34,675 nt of DNA. Origin: a virus. Below, piece by piece: positions 3,336 to 30,829 of the stretch. Each line of letters opens with the position of its first letter. Position 1 is the first letter of the stretch. The translations under genes and the position numbers were made by a program. The stretch spans positions 1 through 34,675 of IMG/VR virus record IMGVR_UViG_3300020171_000085. One strand, written 5' to 3'. Under the pieces are notes generated by a model, which worked only from the letters and a program-made list of their open reading frames with translations, was not told where the DNA came from and did no database searches.

Positions 3336-3918
3336 ATGCCTTACGTTTTTCTCCCTGAGTAGTATTCCCACTGTCTTCAGTGTGATCTTCATAAGTTTTC
3401 CAAGATTCGGAAGTTAGCCAAGCAGGCATACGTTTAATATAAGTCATTTGTCCTTTCAGACTCCTGTCTTCTATTTCAGACCGCAAACATCTCACGATAT
3501 GTTCGTGTAGAGAGGGGTTTGTTCTTACAATATTGTGGTATAATTTACGACATTTATTCTGGTCTACTCTTAAGTAATCGTACATCCCATCTGGTCTTAA
3601 TGCCTTAATAGGAAATGAGGCATAGAATTCATCAAATGGATCGCTGGTAAAGGTTGATGCTTTAATGAATTTTGAGGATATCTCTATTGTTTCTAAGTTT
3701 ATGAAATTTCCAGAATTAAATGAAGCTGCTAAAAATCCAGCAACTTTAAGCTGACTTAAGTCTTTATGCAAATCATTTAACGTATTTGTGTACGCTATAT
3801 ATTGCTTAAGTAAAGTAATCTTATTATCGCTGATTAGTTTGGCAATTATGTATTGGTGTGCTGTAATTTTGTTGTCAAGTAAAAAATTTGTATCTATTTC
3901 TAATATCATTTTTACCAT
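3316..3918 (-). CDS. Unknown protein upstream of helicase (possible loader/initiator)
   Basis: 200 residues, not recognised. The N-terminal half is helical. The C-terminal half has a basic region (LRPDGMYDYLRVDQ, then a run of Arg/Lys around residues 130-175) and an acidic, Gly/Thr-rich tail. Two ATGs at the start (3918 and 3909) are both usable. Its 3' end overlaps the helicase start, which suggests translational coupling and a shared function such as a helicase loader or replication initiator. That role is an inference from position only. Confidence 0.5.
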   Translation of the reverse strand: MVKMILEIDTNFLLDNKITAHQYIIAKLISDNKITLLKQYIAYTNTLNDLHKDLSQLKVAGFLAASFNSGNFINLETIEISSKFIKASTFTSDPFDEFYASFPIKALRPDGMYDYLRVDQNKCRKLYHNIVRTNPSLHEHIVRCLRSEIEDRSLKGQMTYIKRMPAWLTSESWKTYEDHTEDSGNTTQGEKRKAYGSNIE

Positions 3919-3965
3919 TGTTATGGCTTAAAAAGAATTAGTGTTAGATAAATGTGACAAGTAAG

Positions 3966-4226
3966 CTAAGGTTTTTTTCTTCTAACCCGCATTGTTGTTA
4001 TTTGTTGCTGTCCATTAGCTTGCGTTTTAACACCCGAGATAACTCTCTTAAAAAGAATTTGTTTGAAAGGTGCTATTCTTTCAATTTTATCAATTTGAAT
4101 GTCAAATGCGAATATTTCCTTTACAAGAATTGCTTTCGAATATCTATCCGCAGTCTTATATAAAGGATAAAAGAATTCAACTAGGTCTAATGCTAGTCTT
4201 ATTTCTCCTGTTGTTGGTTTATTCAT
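3966..4226 (-). CDS. Small basic protein of unknown function
   Basis: 86 residues, not recognised. An amphipathic N-terminal half (EIRLALDLVEFFYPLY) is followed by a strongly basic C-terminus ending MRVRRKKP, consistent with a small nucleic-acid-binding or adaptor protein. The start ATG (4224-4226) overlaps the end of the HAD-type gene by eight bases, so it belongs to the same operon. Confidence 0.5.
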   Translation of the reverse strand: MNKPTTGEIRLALDLVEFFYPLYKTADRYSKAILVKEIFAFDIQIDKIERIAPFKQILFKRVISGVKTQANGQQQITTMRVRRKKP

Positions 4227-4620
4227 TTGGTATATTTAATAATTCATTACATTTGTAAATCCAATCACTATTTAAAGAATTTATGGCCTTTGTTTTAGTG
4301 TTTCTGTTTATTAACAAACACTCATGAAAACAATCATCCAAATGCCATATAAAATCTTTATCTATAAAAAATGAATCTTTATTTGTAAAATTAGTAAAGT
4401 GTATTCTATCATTTGGTATATTTAATTCTTTTGCTACTTTATATAAATTAGCGTGCCCATTTGGCCACACTACAGGAAGATAACTTTTAAGATTTTCATA
4501 CCTACTTGTAACTATATGAATTTCAATATCTTGGTTCTTTATATTCATTAATGATTTAGCATATAATTGTACACTTTCAAATTCTAAAGTGTCATCAAAA
4601 TCAAAACTTATTTTTCTCAT
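4219..4620 (-). CDS. HAD-superfamily hydrolase (nucleotidase/phosphatase-like)
   Basis: 133 residues. HAD motif I is FDFDDTL at residues 6-12, with the nucleophile and acid Asp pair. Motif II is IVTSR near residues 36-40. Motif IV is HLDDC near residue 93, with a lysine-bearing segment (TNKDSFF) before it. Small phage HAD proteins of this type act on phosphate esters such as deoxynucleotides, 5'/3' nucleotide ends or pyrimidine nucleotides. The substrate cannot be read from the sequence. It sits two bases downstream of the zinc-ribbon gene in the polymerase operon, which points to nucleotide or DNA-end metabolism. Confidence 0.7.
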   Translation of the reverse strand: MRKISFDFDDTLEFESVQLYAKSLMNIKNQDIEIHIVTSRYENLKSYLPVVWPNGHANLYKVAKELNIPNDRIHFTNFTNKDSFFIDKDFIWHLDDCFHECLLINRNTKTKAINSLNSDWIYKCNELLNIPNE

Positions 4621-4622
4621 AG

Positions 4623-4991
4623 TTAGTCAAATTCTAAGATTGTCATTTTTCTATTTTCCATACCACATTTTATAGCAGTTAATACATCACAATGATATAT
4701 AATAAGTTGATTATCTCTCATTTGACATGTTATACTGGTTAAAGCATTATGAAATTCTTCTTTATTAAAATATGGAAATTCAGATATTATTTCTTTTATT
4801 TCAGTTGATGTAAAGCCAATATTATATTTGGTTTTATATTCATATACTAATTTGTATAGGCAATTATTGCAATATACTAATCCTGTTTTTCCTTTAAATT
4901 CATCTTTTGTAAGATTGGATTTTATTATAACAGAACACTTATTACATAATATTGCTCCATCACCATTGTTAAATTTGATAATTGGTTTCAT
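4623..4991 (-). CDS. Zinc-ribbon protein
   Basis: 122 residues. Two CxxC knuckles are visible: CNKC near residues 16-19 and CNNC near 41-44, separated by a Lys-rich loop. This is a typical zinc ribbon, used for DNA, RNA or protein contact. The C-terminal half has the segment STEIKEIISEFPYFNKEEF, a helical region followed by a short beta pattern. Start and upstream stop overlap as TAATG with the polymerase gene (shared base at 4991), implying coupled translation with PolB. The family is seen in phages but I cannot name it. A replication accessory role is inferred. Confidence 0.6.
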   Translation of the reverse strand: MKPIIKFNNGDGAILCNKCSVIIKSNLTKDEFKGKTGLVYCNNCLYKLVYEYKTKYNIGFTSTEIKEIISEFPYFNKEEFHNALTSITCQMRDNQLIIYHCDVLTAIKCGMENRKMTILEFD

Positions 4992-6841
4992 TAGAATAAT
5001 GTTAATTGGGGGTTGATAATTTCGTTAATTATTTTTTGAGTATTGTTAATATAGTAACCATAATCAATATTGTAGTCTCCTTCAAAATAATCATTAAAAA
5101 CAGTAATTTTTTTGTTAACTTCATAGTTTTCAATTTTATTTGTTTCATAATCTTTTTTTAGAAGTACTCCACCATTTGTAGATACATAATATCTTACTGA
5201 TTTTTGTAGTATATCCTTTTTGTATTCACCATTTTTAAAATAGTGATATTCATTTGTAAATTTTTTGTCAATTTTTTTTGCTATACAAAAATCATATATG
5301 TCTTTATGTTCCCTTATAGTTTTCTCAACAGACACTTCATTAATAAAGAATTCATATAAAGCAATTGATATAATAGGTTTGTCAACACCTTTATTAAATG
5401 GATCGGTGTTGTTACTAAAAAATTTAGGAATAGTTTTAGTAAATATACCCTTTTCTTTTATCTCTCCATTTTGTTTTATTGCTAAGTAGTTATTAACATC
5501 TCTACGTATATATTTAGTATAATATATATATTCTAGTTCATATTGGGTATAATTTTCCCATTTCTTGCATATTTCATAATATAGTGTTTCTTTATCTTTA
5601 TCAACCATTGTTGTAATACCATCAGTATTTGCTGATATTACTTTGAAGCCATTAAGAACTAATTGTTCTATTAACATCAATATATATAGTTGTCCATTAA
5701 TAGTAACTTTTAAATTAACCAAGGGATCGTATAACCATAAATATTTATTTAAGGTTTTTCCTATAGTAGCATTAAGTACTATTTTTAAACATTCATCTTC
5801 TGTTTTACGACCTTCTCGTTTTGCTTTAATTCGTTTATCTCGCAATTCTCGAAAGCTTTTCATAAACTTACTACCTAAATGTTCTGGTGTGATACTATGA
5901 TTTATTGCTGTTGCTGGATACATACTAACTATATCTGCATCTATAATAAGAGTAGTATTTGTTTCTTCAAATATTTCTCCACTATCTACGGAGTGTATCC
6001 CACCCACTCCTAATTTATAGGTAATACCATCAAACACTACCTTCTTTTTAAAAAAAGGTTGATCTTTATAGTAAGTGTGGCTTCTTACTTCCTCTAATAA
6101 ATTCATTAGAGTTTCTGTTTGAAAATCTATTTCTGGGAGTATAACCCATTCAAATTTAATAAATTTTCGTTCTGTTCTTAGGTCTTTAAAATATTTCTTA
6201 TCAAGACCTGTAGCTTCAGAGTATACTTTTTCAAGTATTCTATTAGCTATTCCACTATCTGGTTCTGTATATACATTAATATTATACAGTTCAGATATTT
6301 CAGCTCGTAACTTTAAGGCATTTAATAAATGATAATATAATTGTTCTGTTATTAAAACATCATTTAAATTATATTTTCTTATGGTTAAGACATCTTCACA
6401 TTTGATAATACTTCCAAAAGATATTGGTAAATTTTGTATCTTAGGCCATTTCATACTAATACCTAATAGTTTTAATGACTTCTGGTAACCACCTACTTTC
6501 ATTAAATCAATTCCATTAAAGGGGAGATTATACATATAATCTCTGAATTGACTATGTATGATAGTATTTGATAACGTATTAATTTGCATGGTTATTTCAT
6601 TGGTGTCAGTCATTGAGAAATCAAAGTACTTAGTGTGTATATACTTAAGTAATTGATTATCATAACTGAAAGAATTATAACCAACAAACCACTTGTTATG
6701 GTCAGTTATAAAATCATATAGGGCTGATAGATCATTTTTTTCTTCAAAAATAATAAACTCTCTTAGTTCTTTAGTATTTACATTCTTGAATATTACTGAG
6801 AAGTAATTAATAAAAGTTTCACAATCATAAATCCAAATCAT
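4991..6841 (-). CDS. Family B DNA polymerase with 3'-5' exonuclease domain
   Basis: 616 residues. Exonuclease motifs: Exo I YDCETF at residues 5-10, Exo II WFVGYNSFSYDN near 50-63, Exo III YNLNDVLITEQ. Polymerase motif A is DADIVSMYP, motif B is KIVLNATIGK (the Kx3N helix), and motif C is NTDGI in place of the usual DTDS, keeping the second Asp but not the first. It is short compared with cellular PolB (about 750-900). This agrees with the compact polymerases of large Bacteroidota phages, although I see no clear TPR insertions of the protein-primed type. It should be the main replicative enzyme. Its upstream gap carries a 190-base closed RNA domain (6857-7046). Confidence 0.9.
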   Translation of the reverse strand: MIWIYDCETFINYFSVIFKNVNTKELREFIIFEEKNDLSALYDFITDHNKWFVGYNSFSYDNQLLKYIHTKYFDFSMTDTNEITMQINTLSNTIIHSQFRDYMYNLPFNGIDLMKVGGYQKSLKLLGISMKWPKIQNLPISFGSIIKCEDVLTIRKYNLNDVLITEQLYYHLLNALKLRAEISELYNINVYTEPDSGIANRILEKVYSEATGLDKKYFKDLRTERKFIKFEWVILPEIDFQTETLMNLLEEVRSHTYYKDQPFFKKKVVFDGITYKLGVGGIHSVDSGEIFEETNTTLIIDADIVSMYPATAINHSITPEHLGSKFMKSFRELRDKRIKAKREGRKTEDECLKIVLNATIGKTLNKYLWLYDPLVNLKVTINGQLYILMLIEQLVLNGFKVISANTDGITTMVDKDKETLYYEICKKWENYTQYELEYIYYTKYIRRDVNNYLAIKQNGEIKEKGIFTKTIPKFFSNNTDPFNKGVDKPIISIALYEFFINEVSVEKTIREHKDIYDFCIAKKIDKKFTNEYHYFKNGEYKKDILQKSVRYYVSTNGGVLLKKDYETNKIENYEVNKKITVFNDYFEGDYNIDYGYYINNTQKIINEIINPQLTLF

Positions 6842-11438: not shown

Positions 11439-11471
11439 TTGCTCTTCACGAATATCACGATGAGCAGTAGC

Positions 11472-11552
11472 GGTGTGGGTGAGGCTCGAACTCACTCTCT
11501 CCCGAGCGTTCCGACAAAATGCTTCTGCATTCGTCATTCAATCATCCACACC
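11472..11552 (-). tRNA. tRNA, possibly tRNA-Asp(GTC), atypical
   Basis: Begins five bases after the RNR stop codon. The acceptor GGTGTGG/CCACACC has seven perfect pairs and the T-arm GTGAG-TTCGAGC-CTCAC is perfect. The best anticodon arm is GCATT-TTGTCGG-AACGC (four of five pairs), anticodon GTC. The D-arm is weak (ATT/AAT, no GG in its loop), and about nine bases more than a class I tRNA are present. A competing hairpin AATGC-AGAA-GCATT overlaps the D/anticodon region. No CCA is encoded. The isotype is tentative. Confidence 0.6.
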
Positions 11553-18808: not shown

Positions 18809-20356
18809 TCAACTATAAAAATAGCGACAAATCTTATTATCATGTGTTTTCAATAATGGATCATCTAAAATAATTAATCCATCAATATGTTCTCCAATTT
18901 CGGTATTTATTTTATTCAAATAAACTTTCATAAGTTCTTCAAAACGTAAATACCCCAACTTTTTGGTTTCTGCGAAATTTACATCTGGATACACAAGTAA
19001 TGCTAACTTATTGTGTCTCTTAACAAAGAGAACTTCCTCTATATACGGGATTGATTTGATTATCCTTTCTAGTTTATCTAGCTGTATAGGAAGCTTGTAT
19101 TCGTTTTGTATTCTGGCAAGTTTTCTGCCATATACAAATAGAACATTTGAATTGGAATCATCGAAACCAATATCGCCTGTTACATAATTATCCCTAAAAC
19201 GAACTTCACGTGTGTATGATTCATCACCAACATAATTGTTGAATAATGTATCACCAGAAATTTCTAACTCATCTTCTGTTGTGATAAATGATAACCCAGG
19301 CAAGCCAACAGCACCAGGTGATCTTTTTTTAGCAGTAGAGTAGTTATTTATTGCCACCAATTGATTGGTTTCTTGAGAACCGTATGTGGTGTAAATAGGC
19401 AATTTGCCTACCAAAGTCAAAAGCAGTTCATCATTTACAACACTGTTGTATATAATTAAAGCTTCTAATTTTTTACCATAATAACTCTTCATTTTTAGCG
19501 TCGCTATTTTCTTAAAGAGCCATTTCATCCATGAAATAGAAAACAAAAATGACAAGACTCGTTTACTATATAAGTAATTAACGTTCTTTCTCCAAATATC
19601 TTCAATAGAAGTGGTGTCTTCTATGACGATTTCTGCATCTTTATGGTTAGTTATAAATCTACAACCTGTAACAAAAGGTAATAATACTGTTAAGTAATGT
19701 GAATCAGCAAATTCTACTCGAGAAAATACTTTATCAATTGTTCTACCAAACGGTACTACACTCATTGCTCTATTTAGTAAATCTGTAACTGATTCTGTAG
19801 ATGATTCAACCCATTTGGGTTCACCATTTTCAGTACCAGAAGTTGCAGTAATAATTGAACTTTCAATATCAATATCTTCAATTACTGCTTGTAATGATCT
19901 TAAATCAACATTTAAAGTTTCTTCTGAACTAACTATTATTTCAGCTAGTGTTTTAAAATAGGTTTGGTCATTTTTTTCATAGACTACTGATAACAATTCT
20001 ATGTTTATCAGTGTCCTAAGAAATATGTTACTACCTAATTCTTTAGATATTAATTCTTCATCTATGAAGACATGATTAGTGTTGGTTAAGAGTTGAATGT
20101 GAACTGCTTCAAATTTATTTATGTTTGGATGTATAATTAATAATCGTACACCTTTAAGTAAACAAGCCAAGTATATGGCAATCCAATTTTGTGAATTACT
20201 ACCATATAATGCTACAGTTGATTTTTCATCTAACTCAAATACATCAAGCACATTATATATTGTAAGAATTCGTTTAAAGAAATCTTTCATTAAGATGTGC
20301 TCAAATACAGGCAAATACCAACCTTCACTTATAGCCTGCAGAATCCTGTTTCTCAT
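18809..20356 (-). CDS. ANL-superfamily adenylating enzyme, long-chain acyl-CoA synthetase-like
   Basis: 515 residues. ANL core motifs in order: VALYGSNSQNW (48-58); A3 P-loop TSGTENGEPK (172-181, one residue longer than TSGTTGxPKG); a GKKLEALIIYNS stretch (294-305) equivalent to the GGRLRxxxSGGAP segment of acyl-CoA ligases; A5 TTYGSQET (323-330); A7 YVTGD (391-395); A8 hinge GRKLARIQ (410-417, hinge Asp replaced); PYIEEVLFV and LALLVYPD as in long-chain acyl-CoA ligases; and A10 KTHDNKICR with the catalytic Lys at 508. It would activate a carboxylate, probably a fatty acid, with ATP. It is the last gene of a four-gene overlapping operon and is followed by the 1.7 kb RNA region. Substrate and partner are unknown; the altered A3 and A8 leave activity open. 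Confidence 0.8.
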   Translation of the reverse strand: MRNRILQAISEGWYLPVFEHILMKDFFKRILTIYNVLDVFELDEKSTVALYGSNSQNWIAIYLACLLKGVRLLIIHPNINKFEAVHIQLLTNTNHVFIDEELISKELGSNIFLRTLINIELLSVVYEKNDQTYFKTLAEIIVSSEETLNVDLRSLQAVIEDIDIESSIITATSGTENGEPKWVESSTESVTDLLNRAMSVVPFGRTIDKVFSRVEFADSHYLTVLLPFVTGCRFITNHKDAEIVIEDTTSIEDIWRKNVNYLYSKRVLSFLFSISWMKWLFKKIATLKMKSYYGKKLEALIIYNSVVNDELLLTLVGKLPIYTTYGSQETNQLVAINNYSTAKKRSPGAVGLPGLSFITTEDELEISGDTLFNNYVGDESYTREVRFRDNYVTGDIGFDDSNSNVLFVYGRKLARIQNEYKLPIQLDKLERIIKSIPYIEEVLFVKRHNKLALLVYPDVNFAETKKLGYLRFEELMKVYLNKINTEIGEHIDGLIILDDPLLKTHDNKICRYFYS

Positions 20357-28642: not shown

Positions 28643-29470
28643 TTAATTAATTGCTGGTTCTTCGTCTTTTTCAGATTCAGCTGTTTCTATGTTGTCAGTA
28701 TCTGGTTCGTCTGATGATAATTCAGCTTCTTTTACTTCGACTCTTTTGTTGCCAAAGCTGTCTTCAATGATTAGGGTTTTCTTGTCTTTAACCCAGGGTC
28801 TTACTCTTTTGTCAACGATTTTTGCAGCGGCTTCTTCAAGTAGATCAAGGTCATCGTCATCTGCAAAGAATTTGATTGAACCTGATACAACTTCTTTATG
28901 GCCGTATCTACCTGTGAGTGGGTCAAGTGTAGTTGGTGCTAAAGCATGTGGTTTTCCGTCGGCTCCCATATTATGTGGGGTATATTCAGGTACATTCATG
29001 GCAATAATTTTACCAAATAGTTTTCTTTTGAGGAGTATTTGAGGACGTTTCCAAACTTTGCCTGTTTTGGGGTCTGTTATTTGTACGATACCATTTTCAA
29101 TGTAACCCTTGTCTTTACCTTCGTCAATTGCCCTTTTAAGGAAATTGAATAGGTCTGGTTGTGCTGTTTGGAAGACTACACCTATTTGTGCTTTTTTTGG
29201 TCCTGAGAATGTTTCTTCTCCTGATTGTTCATCAATTTTGATTGAACCTACTGGTTTGAAACTAGTATGGATGTAATCTGAGGGTTTTACACCTGCTGCA
29301 ATTGCTTCTGCACTGGGTTTAGAAGTTTGTACAAAGTTAGTTGTTTGTACTTTTGTTTCAGGGTTTGTTGTTCTAATACCTACGACGTAAATGTCATGTA
29401 GAATACTAGGCTGTCTGAAGTTAAACAGTGTAGGATTCATTGTTTGTAGAATTGATTTAGTTGTACTCAT
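28643..29470 (-). CDS. Unknown 275-residue protein (full-length paralogue)
   Basis: 275 residues; beta-rich and soluble, with an acidic C-terminal tail (SSDEPDTDNIETAESEKDEE). A shorter paralogue lies at 31463-31840. The two share the N-terminal LQTMNPTLFN pattern and a C-terminal block (MNVPEYTPH, APTTLDPLTGRYG, KFFADDDDLDLLEEAA, RPWVKDK). Less AT-rich than its neighbours, which may mean stronger expression (estimate by eye). Family not recognised; the acidic tail is reminiscent of ssDNA-binding proteins, but no OB-fold signature is evident. It is the first gene after the second long RNA region. Confidence 0.6.
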   Translation of the reverse strand: MSTTKSILQTMNPTLFNFRQPSILHDIYVVGIRTTNPETKVQTTNFVQTSKPSAEAIAAGVKPSDYIHTSFKPVGSIKIDEQSGEETFSGPKKAQIGVVFQTAQPDLFNFLKRAIDEGKDKGYIENGIVQITDPKTGKVWKRPQILLKRKLFGKIIAMNVPEYTPHNMGADGKPHALAPTTLDPLTGRYGHKEVVSGSIKFFADDDDLDLLEEAAAKIVDKRVRPWVKDKKTLIIEDSFGNKRVEVKEAELSSDEPDTDNIETAESEKDEEPAIN

Positions 29471-29674
29471 TTCTTTCTTTTTTTGTGTGTATTATTAAAT
29501 TAGTCAATTTTAAATATCTGTGCAAAGATAATTAGTGGAGTAGGTCGGTTACGGATCGCCATATTTATCCAGTGATCTATCAGATCAGTAAAGATAATGC
29601 ATTTACAAAATTATGCTACACTCCTAGCCAAATATTCACTTCTTTTCATATAATATGGATTTAGGTGAATTTTA

Positions 29675-29751
29675 TGGCACGGGGGGAGAGACTCGAACTC
29701 CCGACTTTTGGTTTTGGAAACCAATGCTCTAGCCAACTGAGCTACACCCGT
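29675..29751 (-). tRNA. tRNA-Trp(CCA)
   Basis: Canonical and complete. Acceptor ACGGGTG/CCCCCGT (six of seven pairs), D-arm GCTC-AGTTGGCTA-GAGC, anticodon arm TTGGT-TTCCAAA-ACCAA with anticodon CCA, T-arm GGGAG-TTCGAGT-CTCTC, discriminator G and an encoded 3' CCA. 77 bases. Preceded on the minus strand by a strong closed hairpin (29758-29850). Confidence 0.92.
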
Positions 29752-29757
29752 ATTTTA

Positions 29758-29850
29758 AAAGACTCTTGATACGTTATGAATGTTACATGCATCAAAATTA
29801 TGAAATTCCCAAATTAGTGATTATACAAAGAACGCGTATCAAGAGTCTTT
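29758..29850 (-). ncRNA. Closed RNA domain with 16-pair helix upstream of tRNA-Trp
   Basis: AAAGACTCTTGATACG (29758-29773) and CGTATCAAGAGTCTTT (29835-29850) are perfect complements. On the minus strand the 3' arm ends in TTTT seven bases before tRNA-Trp. It could be a terminator or a processing signal that frees the tRNA. Confidence 0.6.
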
Positions 29851-29858
29851 ATTGGAAA

Positions 29859-29951
29859 GAAACTCTCTTCTCATCTTTTTCACATCCATTGAAGGAAATG
29901 AATGGTTCAATTAGCAATAGCCAGTGGACCAAAGCTGGGTAAGAGAGTTTC
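29859..29951 (-). ncRNA. Closed RNA domain 2 of tandem set
   Basis: GAAACTCTCTT (29859-29869) pairs perfectly with AAGAGAGTTTC (29941-29951). An inner CCATT/AATGG hairpin is visible. Length 93 bases, tRNA-sized, but no T-loop (TTCGA) sequence, so it is not a normal tRNA. Confidence 0.5.
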
Positions 29952-29958
29952 AGTGGGG

Positions 29959-30022
29959 TACAATGCCAAGTGGCCTTTCCTATTTCGCAAGTCCGGATAT
30001 AGGCTTAGGCATAGGCATTGTA
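29959..30022 (-). ncRNA. Closed RNA domain 3 of tandem set
   Basis: TACAATGCC (29959-29967) pairs perfectly with GGCATTGTA (30014-30022) around a GC-richer loop with a CCTA/TAGG inner pairing. Confidence 0.45.
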
Positions 30023-30027
30023 TGGGG

Positions 30028-30096
30028 TAACCCTAACATTGACAGTGTTGGTACGTATACTCGTGGCATATGTAGTCTAACTGTGTGATAGGGTTA
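30028..30096 (-). ncRNA. Closed RNA domain 4 of tandem set
   Basis: TAACCCTA (30028-30035) pairs perfectly with TAGGGTTA (30089-30096), with an inner AACA/TGTT hairpin. It lies two bases from the tRNA-Arg 3' end. Confidence 0.45.
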
Positions 30097-30097
30097 T

Positions 30098-30180
30098 TGG
30101 TAAGGATAGTGGATTCGAACCACTGACCTACAGCTTAGAAGGCTGTTGCTCCAGTCCTTTATATTCTGAGCTAATCCTTA
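30098..30180 (-). tRNA. tRNA-Arg(TCT)
   Basis: Acceptor TAAGGAT/ATCCTTA (seven pairs), D-stem GCTC/GAGC with an unusually long 16-base D-loop, anticodon arm ACAGC-CTTCTAA-GCTGT with anticodon TCT, T-arm AGTGG-TTCGAAT-CCACT. CCA directly follows the seven-pair acceptor stem, leaving no separate discriminator base unless the outer pair opens. TCT reads AGA/AGG, common in AT-rich phage genes and rarer in many hosts. Confidence 0.88.
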
Positions 30181-30829
30181 CTTTTAAAATCATTCATTAT
30201 ATCTCCGGTCTTTGCCATGGTGTTACACATTACACCAAAACCTGTTTATAATAGATTGTGTGACTATTTTATCAGGGGCATATCTTGTGTTGTCCCAAGA
30301 TGTGTTTACTGCGTTATAGTAGTTGCAGTTTACTGTCATGTATGTATCGCCCATTGACTGGCGAATAGGTTATAAGCCTATGCTGTTGTATTTAAGAGAT
30401 TATTATGAATGATATTTTATTTATTATCACTCGTATCAATAGAGTGATTGCACAATTAGTTATAATCCGGATCCAGTTCAGAGTGGGCTATTATGCTGTC
30501 CATTATGGGCGCTTCTCATTCTGGTTATTGATAACTATACGACAACATGTTTCTATGTTGAAGGCTAAATAGCATTATTCTGCTAATGCAAACTGATATT
30601 TAGCTGCCTATGTTATTCGCCGCCCTGATGTCCTTTGATAGAGGATTAGCTGTTTGTTCTGCAGTGCGAATACATAATATCATCACCGAATTCGCTTAAA
30701 GCTAGTAGAGGTGTGAGTATTAAAACATTCACTTATAATAGTTATTATTGATATACATTACTGTAACTTTTAGCATATTAGTAAGTGGTAATCAACTGCC
30801 TGTTATATAAGGGAATGTTGGAGTATAGG

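Follow-up and report, generated by a model that had tools for sequence, protein, structure and literature searches.

The window analysed here, the whole stretch of DNA under study, is a virus record of 34,675 bases whose DNA polymerase is closest to those of Crassvirales, for example cr6_1 and cr118_1. Through this polymerase we found the relatives G001, G019 and G021, with polymerases 62–78% identical to that of the window (75% in G001 and 62% in G021), and the large terminase of all three is of the Crassvirales type. Judged by the polymerase similarity and by the terminase type of the relatives found with it, the window belongs to a crAss-like phage genome, of which it is a fragment. These phages, which infect Bacteroidota, are very abundant, and apart from tRNAs we know of no conserved structured RNA that has been described for them. 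The genes of the window lie on the minus strand, as do the structured RNAs of the region 29471–30829, within which that strand holds no open reading frame of at least 60 aa. The gene on the 3′ side of this region has homologues in G001 (43% identical), G013, G015, G019 and G021, and structured noncoding DNA lies 5′ of the homologue in G001, G019 and G021. Elsewhere in the window, a phage gene at 18809–20356 (minus strand) matches AMP-binding enzymes (PF00501, E 7e-11), which is unusual in a phage. The features of the region are as follows, with z-scores obtained by folding against shuffles on the minus strand.

28643–29470, minus strand: gene of unknown function, 275 aa, 3′ of the array
29530–29632, minus strand: s0, segment before tRNA-Trp, z −1.05
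29675–29751, minus strand: tRNA-Trp(CCA), RF00005 62.8 bits, also found by ARAGORN
29758–29850, minus strand: s1, 93 nt, helix of 16 bp (29758–29773/29835–29850), GCGUUCUUU loop at 29827–29835, z −5.08
29859–29951, minus strand: s2, 93 nt, closing helix of 11 bp (29859–29869/29941–29951), z −4.37
29959–30022, minus strand: s3, 64 nt, closing helix of 9 bp (29959–29967/30014–30022), z −3.97
30028–30096, minus strand: s4, 69 nt, closing helix of 8 bp (30028–30035/30089–30096), z −3.24
30099–30180, minus strand: tRNA-Arg(UCU), RF00005 58.2 bits, labelled Cys(aca) by ARAGORN
30186–30416, minus strand: module B, 231 nt, multi-hairpin, closed by the inverted repeat AUCAUUCAU/AUGAAUGAU, z −4.53
30241–30276, minus strand: core hairpin of module B, CCUGAUAAA-helix-AUAAACAGG (CUGAUAA-helix-AAACAG in seven phages)
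30420–30724, minus strand: module A, about 305 nt, with P1 (ACACC/GGUG), P2, P2a, P3 (GCUAA/UUAGC), P4 (GAAA-type loop), P5 (UAGUU/AACUA) and P6
30426–30461, minus strand: AACUAAUUGUGC followed by the P6 hairpin AUCACUC-UAUUGAUAC-GAGUGAU, whose stem varies and pairs in all members
30631–30645, minus strand: P2a hairpin UCCU-CUAUCAA-AGGA, with a loop complementary to that of P6 (UUGAUA)
30724–30819, minus strand: s5, closed domain of 96 nt, an inverted repeat with 14-nt arms that are 93% complementary, z −2.05

The two tRNAs that frame s1–s4 are real by their Rfam scores, as the first-pass annotation had it. The one at 30099–30180 is, at 82 nt, longer than usual, and we read it as tRNA-Arg because its anticodon loop, CUUCUAA, gives UCU. 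Nothing else in the region was recognised as a tRNA by covariance model or by ARAGORN; elsewhere in the window, at 11470–11552 (minus strand), ARAGORN also places a tRNA-Asp(gtc), which Rfam does not confirm. The four closed segments reported between the two tRNAs were recovered exactly in size, helix length and spacing, all four closing helices being perfectly Watson–Crick paired and the spacers measuring 8, 7 and 5 nt. Non-overlapping long helices in this 347-nt stretch total 36 bp, a sum from which the 8-bp helix is left out, compared with a mean of 1.2 bp in dinucleotide shuffles, none of which reached 36 bp in 1000; the earlier view that such a succession of helices is unlikely by chance is thus borne out. 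For comparison with the z-scores listed above, the two tRNAs scored −1.7 and −2.7. The fifth, cloverleaf-like segment proposed before tRNA-Trp (s0) folds no better than chance, and s5 lies directly 5′ of module A. Compared with one another, s0–s5 are not copies of each other, and a search of 1.5 Mb of viral DNA found no relatives of s0, s2, s3, s4 or s5. In G019, additional closed domains (L091:3740–3850 and 4430–4800; for example AAAGGGCTCA...TGAGCCCTTT and GAGAGGTGATT...AATCACCTCTC) precede a 296-aa gene.

Segment s1 recurs in G001 (L005) and G021 (L093/L094, near-identical contigs such as L094 being counted once), in the noncoding DNA 5′ of the homologue of the downstream gene. In all three phages the GCGUUCUUU loop and the outer AAAG/CUUU pairing persist, and the central part of the helix has been exchanged on both sides (GACUCUUGAUAC/GUAUCAAGAGUC; GGGAUU/AAUCCC; CCUUGUUAUG/UAUAACAAGG). 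When the arms of the three phages were swapped, cognate arms paired at 100% compared with 63% for swapped ones, in a test that is biased towards pairing since the arms had been picked for it. Another match to the s1 pattern, L008, lies inside a coding frame and was set aside as chance. In the window s1 is followed by CUUUUAAAAU, and CUUUUAA, which resembles a terminator tail, follows s1 and its relatives; no CCA comes after s1 in the window or in the relatives. By its covariation, s1 is an RNA element, absent from Rfam, whose structure is conserved across phages. The suggestion of a new family of stable small RNAs is supported for s1, the helix of which has been replaced yet kept in G001 and G021, and may also apply to s2–s4, for which the search gave no relatives; two stronger families 5′ of tRNA-Arg, modules A and B, extend it.

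The 650 nt 5′ of tRNA-Arg (30181–30829) contain the best-conserved RNAs of the region. Module B, sited between module A and tRNA-Arg, has collinear blocks in common with G001, and its core hairpin, CUGAUAA-helix-(A)(U)AAACAG, is carried by the window, G001, L036, L012, L039, G021 and L125, the inner helix being different each time and paired each time. Swapping the arms of this inner helix among the seven phages reduced pairing from 100% to 54%, with the same bias towards pairing as for s1. Most of the 43 matches to the module B pattern were rejected as chance, being in coding frames and having no hairpin. A Crassvirales terminase is present in L036 and in the record of L039, and L012 resembles the group of Flavobacterium phage Fpv1; the noncoding stretch around the core hairpin of L012 also contains tandem closed domains of 9–13 bp, an architecture that it shares with the window. 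On this comparative evidence module B, of about 230 nt, is an RNA element absent from Rfam.

Module A was exposed by comparing the window with G019 and G021, which revealed AACTAATTGTGC followed by a hairpin with the loop UAUUGAUAC. Members were found by pattern search and then filtered on hairpins and coding frames; most of the 57 matches proved to be chance, in coding frames and lacking the hairpin. The module is present in noncoding DNA of ten phages, namely the window, eight others including G019 and G021, and L135, in which the hairpin is slightly altered. Its length among members is about 248–367 nt, and its order is ACACC-P1-GGUGAUAAUAU, P2, GGCAGCUAA-P3-UUAGCCUU, P4 with its GAAA-type loop, GUAUAGUU-P5-AACUAAUUGUGC and P6. 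Because MAFFT alignments of the whole module were poor, we traced the helices outward from sequence anchors and based the statistics on the better-aligned 3′ part and on arm swapping. The stem of the P6-type hairpin differs in every member and is paired in every one, with two-sided changes at 7 of 7 positions. Such changes occur at nearly all positions of P2, P4 and P6, and in P3 and P5 the outer pairs are invariant and the inner pairs covary. Cognate arms paired at 100% in both P2 and P6 compared with 58% and 55% after swapping, figures that carry the bias of arms chosen for pairing. For the 20 pairs of P4–P6 in a structure-free alignment, 88% of cells were paired, compared with 24–40% when the partners were slid, and two-sided changes numbered 40 compared with 16.3 in shuffles (0 of 500 reached this). 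An outer helix closing the module (UUAAUAU/AUAUUAA), plausible by eye, was discarded, cognate and swapped arms giving 6.7 and 6.1 bp. The thermodynamic stability of the module is not unusual (z +0.3).

The covariance model R1, trained on nine members, recovers all nine, the window scoring 135 bits, and finds the held-out member L135 at E 3.7e-15. Neither R1 nor the pattern found module A in 14 named phage records, mostly Crassvirales (13 plus Fpv1), and blastn of the L125 and L152 regions against named phages gave nothing convincing. In 84,980 bacterial and archaeal species genomes the DNA pattern had 43 matches, all chance, the hairpin and the other elements never occurring together. By its covariation, module A is a structured RNA absent from Rfam, with five covarying helices, P2–P6. 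Relatives with broken helices, the outcome that the first-pass annotation said would refute it, were looked for in s1, A and B, and none was found. Directly 3′ of module A, L131 (210–470 nt after the motif) and L173 (60–340 nt after it) encode related proteins of 86–93 aa.

Most members of module A have a small hairpin, P2a, inside P2, with the loop (U)AUCAA. UAUCAA is the commonest shared hexamer there, found inside P2 in six of the nine members compared with a mean of 0.3 in shuffles, none of 5000 shuffles reaching six. The other three are L173, which keeps AUCAA, and L091 (P2 only tentatively placed) and L157, which have neither. UAUCAA and the UUGAUA of P6 form a predicted kissing loop, which may link parts of a single molecule or two molecules; the two loops hardly vary, so that their complementarity is not accompanied by covariation.

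Rfam has no counterpart for modules A, B or s1. The closest known kind are the large phage RNAs GOLLD and ROOL, alike in setting and complexity and unmatched by covariance model: their Rfam models gave no hit, with E limits of 10 for the window and G001 and of 5 for four further members. GOLLD is phage-encoded, several hundred nucleotides long and elaborate, is often near tRNA genes, has loop–loop contacts and is of unknown function; ROOL, also of unknown function, is a phage RNA near tRNA islands with kissing loops in its structure (PMC12286853). Like GOLLD, the array of the window is phage-encoded and surrounds two tRNAs, whereas the arrays of relatives have none; unlike GOLLD, the modules are smaller, separable and seen only in crAss-like phages, and, unlike ROOL, they are separable and variable in order. 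With regard to the RNA-only homo-oligomers of GOLLD/ROOL-type RNAs, what is seen here is a candidate kissing loop. The put RNA of HK022 is a short two-hairpin antitermination RNA that acts in cis in early phage transcripts. It resembles the modules as a structured RNA of early phage transcripts, if these are indeed expressed early, and differs in that module A has 250–370 nt and at least five conserved helices. In the literature on crAss-like phages, searched without most subscription papers, we found no description of such RNAs.

The arrangement of the modules is not constant. In the window the order is s5-A-B-tRNA-Arg-s4-s3-s2-s1-tRNA-Trp-gene; in L125 it is A-B-genes, without s-domains; in G021 it is A-genes-s1-B-gene, with about 1.8 kb of genes between A and s1 plus B; in G001 it is B-...-s1-gene, without A; and in G019 A is followed by genes, other closed domains and the gene. 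No tRNA lies inside the array in the relatives scanned, and the genes downstream of the modules differ between phages. Most carriers have a Crassvirales-type terminase, and in the phages in which module and terminase gene could both be placed, 5–11 kb separate A or B from that gene, which is on the other strand; in crAss-like genomes this side is generally the replication arm and probably early. Because their order varies and they sometimes lie apart, the modules behave as separate units and are probably separate RNAs, not one. The first-pass annotation had also considered modules of one large RNA, and a 1.36-kb noncoding stretch beside tRNAs could be a single ornate molecule of a new GOLLD- or ROOL-like type with embedded tRNAs, all the more as the linker of some GOLLD RNAs contains tRNAs (PMC12286853) and conserved loop–loop complementarity exists within A. 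We consider this improbable, as genes separate A from s1 and B in G021, G001 has no A, L125 has only A and B, the arrays of relatives contain no tRNA, and the Rfam models of GOLLD and ROOL do not match.

The comparison shows the conserved secondary structures of these elements, the strand on which they lie, their occurrence across phages and the shuffling of their order. Structure and loops are kept across phages with different neighbouring genes and with DNA polymerases that are strongly diverged or unrelated, which shows that selection acts on the RNA. The evidence points to at least three elements (A, B and s1) being previously undescribed viral RNAs with real functions, and from the sequences we infer that they exist as discrete RNAs. 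Our preferred reading, to which we would give a probability of roughly 55%, is an array of separate structured RNAs on the minus strand that are processed and act in trans as stable RNAs early in infection. The array would be transcribed together with the two tRNAs and the neighbouring crAss-like phage genes, each module would fold independently and be excised from the polycistronic transcript like the adjoining tRNAs, and the products would act as stable RNAs or RNA–protein particles. The conserved loops and junctions may be sites of binding or tertiary contact, and the variable, always-paired helices may be scaffolding. Action in trans by stable RNAs from the early arm, as is thought of GOLLD and ROOL, is the most likely function.

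The main rival, which we hold to be appreciably less probable, makes the modules cis-acting leaders or intergenic elements of early operons, serving for example antitermination, as the put RNAs of HK022 do, protection of mRNA ends or translation control of the next gene. It would explain why all members are co-directional between genes of one arm, often less than 100 nt 5′ of a start codon, and an operon can carry several modules in succession, which is the case in the window; gene orientation is, however, uniform in the arm, which makes it weak evidence. A polymerase that recognises the RNA would fit the strong conservation of the loops and junctions. Module A is far bigger and more elaborate than put-type RNAs as generally known. 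The downstream genes of L131 and L173 are related, whereas the others differ, and in the window what comes after the modules is tRNAs and more RNA domains instead of a start codon. Autonomous RNAs fit better than a regulator of one gene because downstream genes and order differ. Processed RNAs that act in trans are also the better fit to modules that stand apart, have no one gene always downstream of them and, in the window, are interspersed with tRNAs. That s1–s4 are decayed tRNAs, as suggested earlier, or otherwise unusual tRNAs or tRNA-like molecules is very unlikely. The segments are tRNA-sized and sited between two tRNAs, and CCA, as at tRNA 3′ ends, occurs in the spacers after s4, s3 and s2 (CCCCA, CCCCACT and TTTCCAAT; 29952–30098), but s1–s4 match neither the tRNA covariance model nor ARAGORN, their closing helices have 8–16 bp and not 7, s1, A and B have no adjoining tRNAs in relatives, and in G001 and G021 no CCA follows the s1 helix. 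Hardly any weight can be given to the idea that the long helices terminate transcription or are inverted repeats that arose by chance in AT-rich DNA: the CUUUUAA after s1 and its relatives has no parallel in a U run after s2, s3 or s4, loops of 46–71 nt are not terminator-like, the s1 loop is kept across phages whose helices differ, and the shuffles (0 of 1000) had already refuted chance. Self-cleaving ribozymes were looked for by eye, and no known consensus was seen.

A more specific version of the preferred reading, which we put forward tentatively, is that A, B and s1 form an early RNA system specific to crAss-like phages, in which A would fold through the P2a–P6 kissing loop into a particle that acts on host or phage gene expression, comparable to the cages of GOLLD and ROOL and unrelated to them. 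For GOLLD and ROOL the structures are known and the function is not. An independent set of phage RNAs that combines clear covariation with a definite place in the genome and a kissing loop open to testing would offer a second system for finding out what such RNAs do.

Finally, structured small RNAs near tRNAs recall YrlA, the Y RNA-like partner of Ro/TROVE proteins, but its model gave 15.3 bits only (cut-off 69). In L039, a gene at 3767–5083, some 1.6 kb away from the module B core hairpin, has a product that matches PHROG 850 ('RNA-binding protein') and that we took as possibly Ro/TROVE-like; a protein of this type is absent from the records of G001, L012, L036 and Fpv1, and the Ro/TROVE link was dropped. 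In Fpv1 (NC_031914.1), a gap between annotated genes that has no feature in the deposited record (L053:3045–3459) contains a phage-encoded tmRNA (RF00023, 58.2 bits, cut-off 47), which ARAGORN missed.
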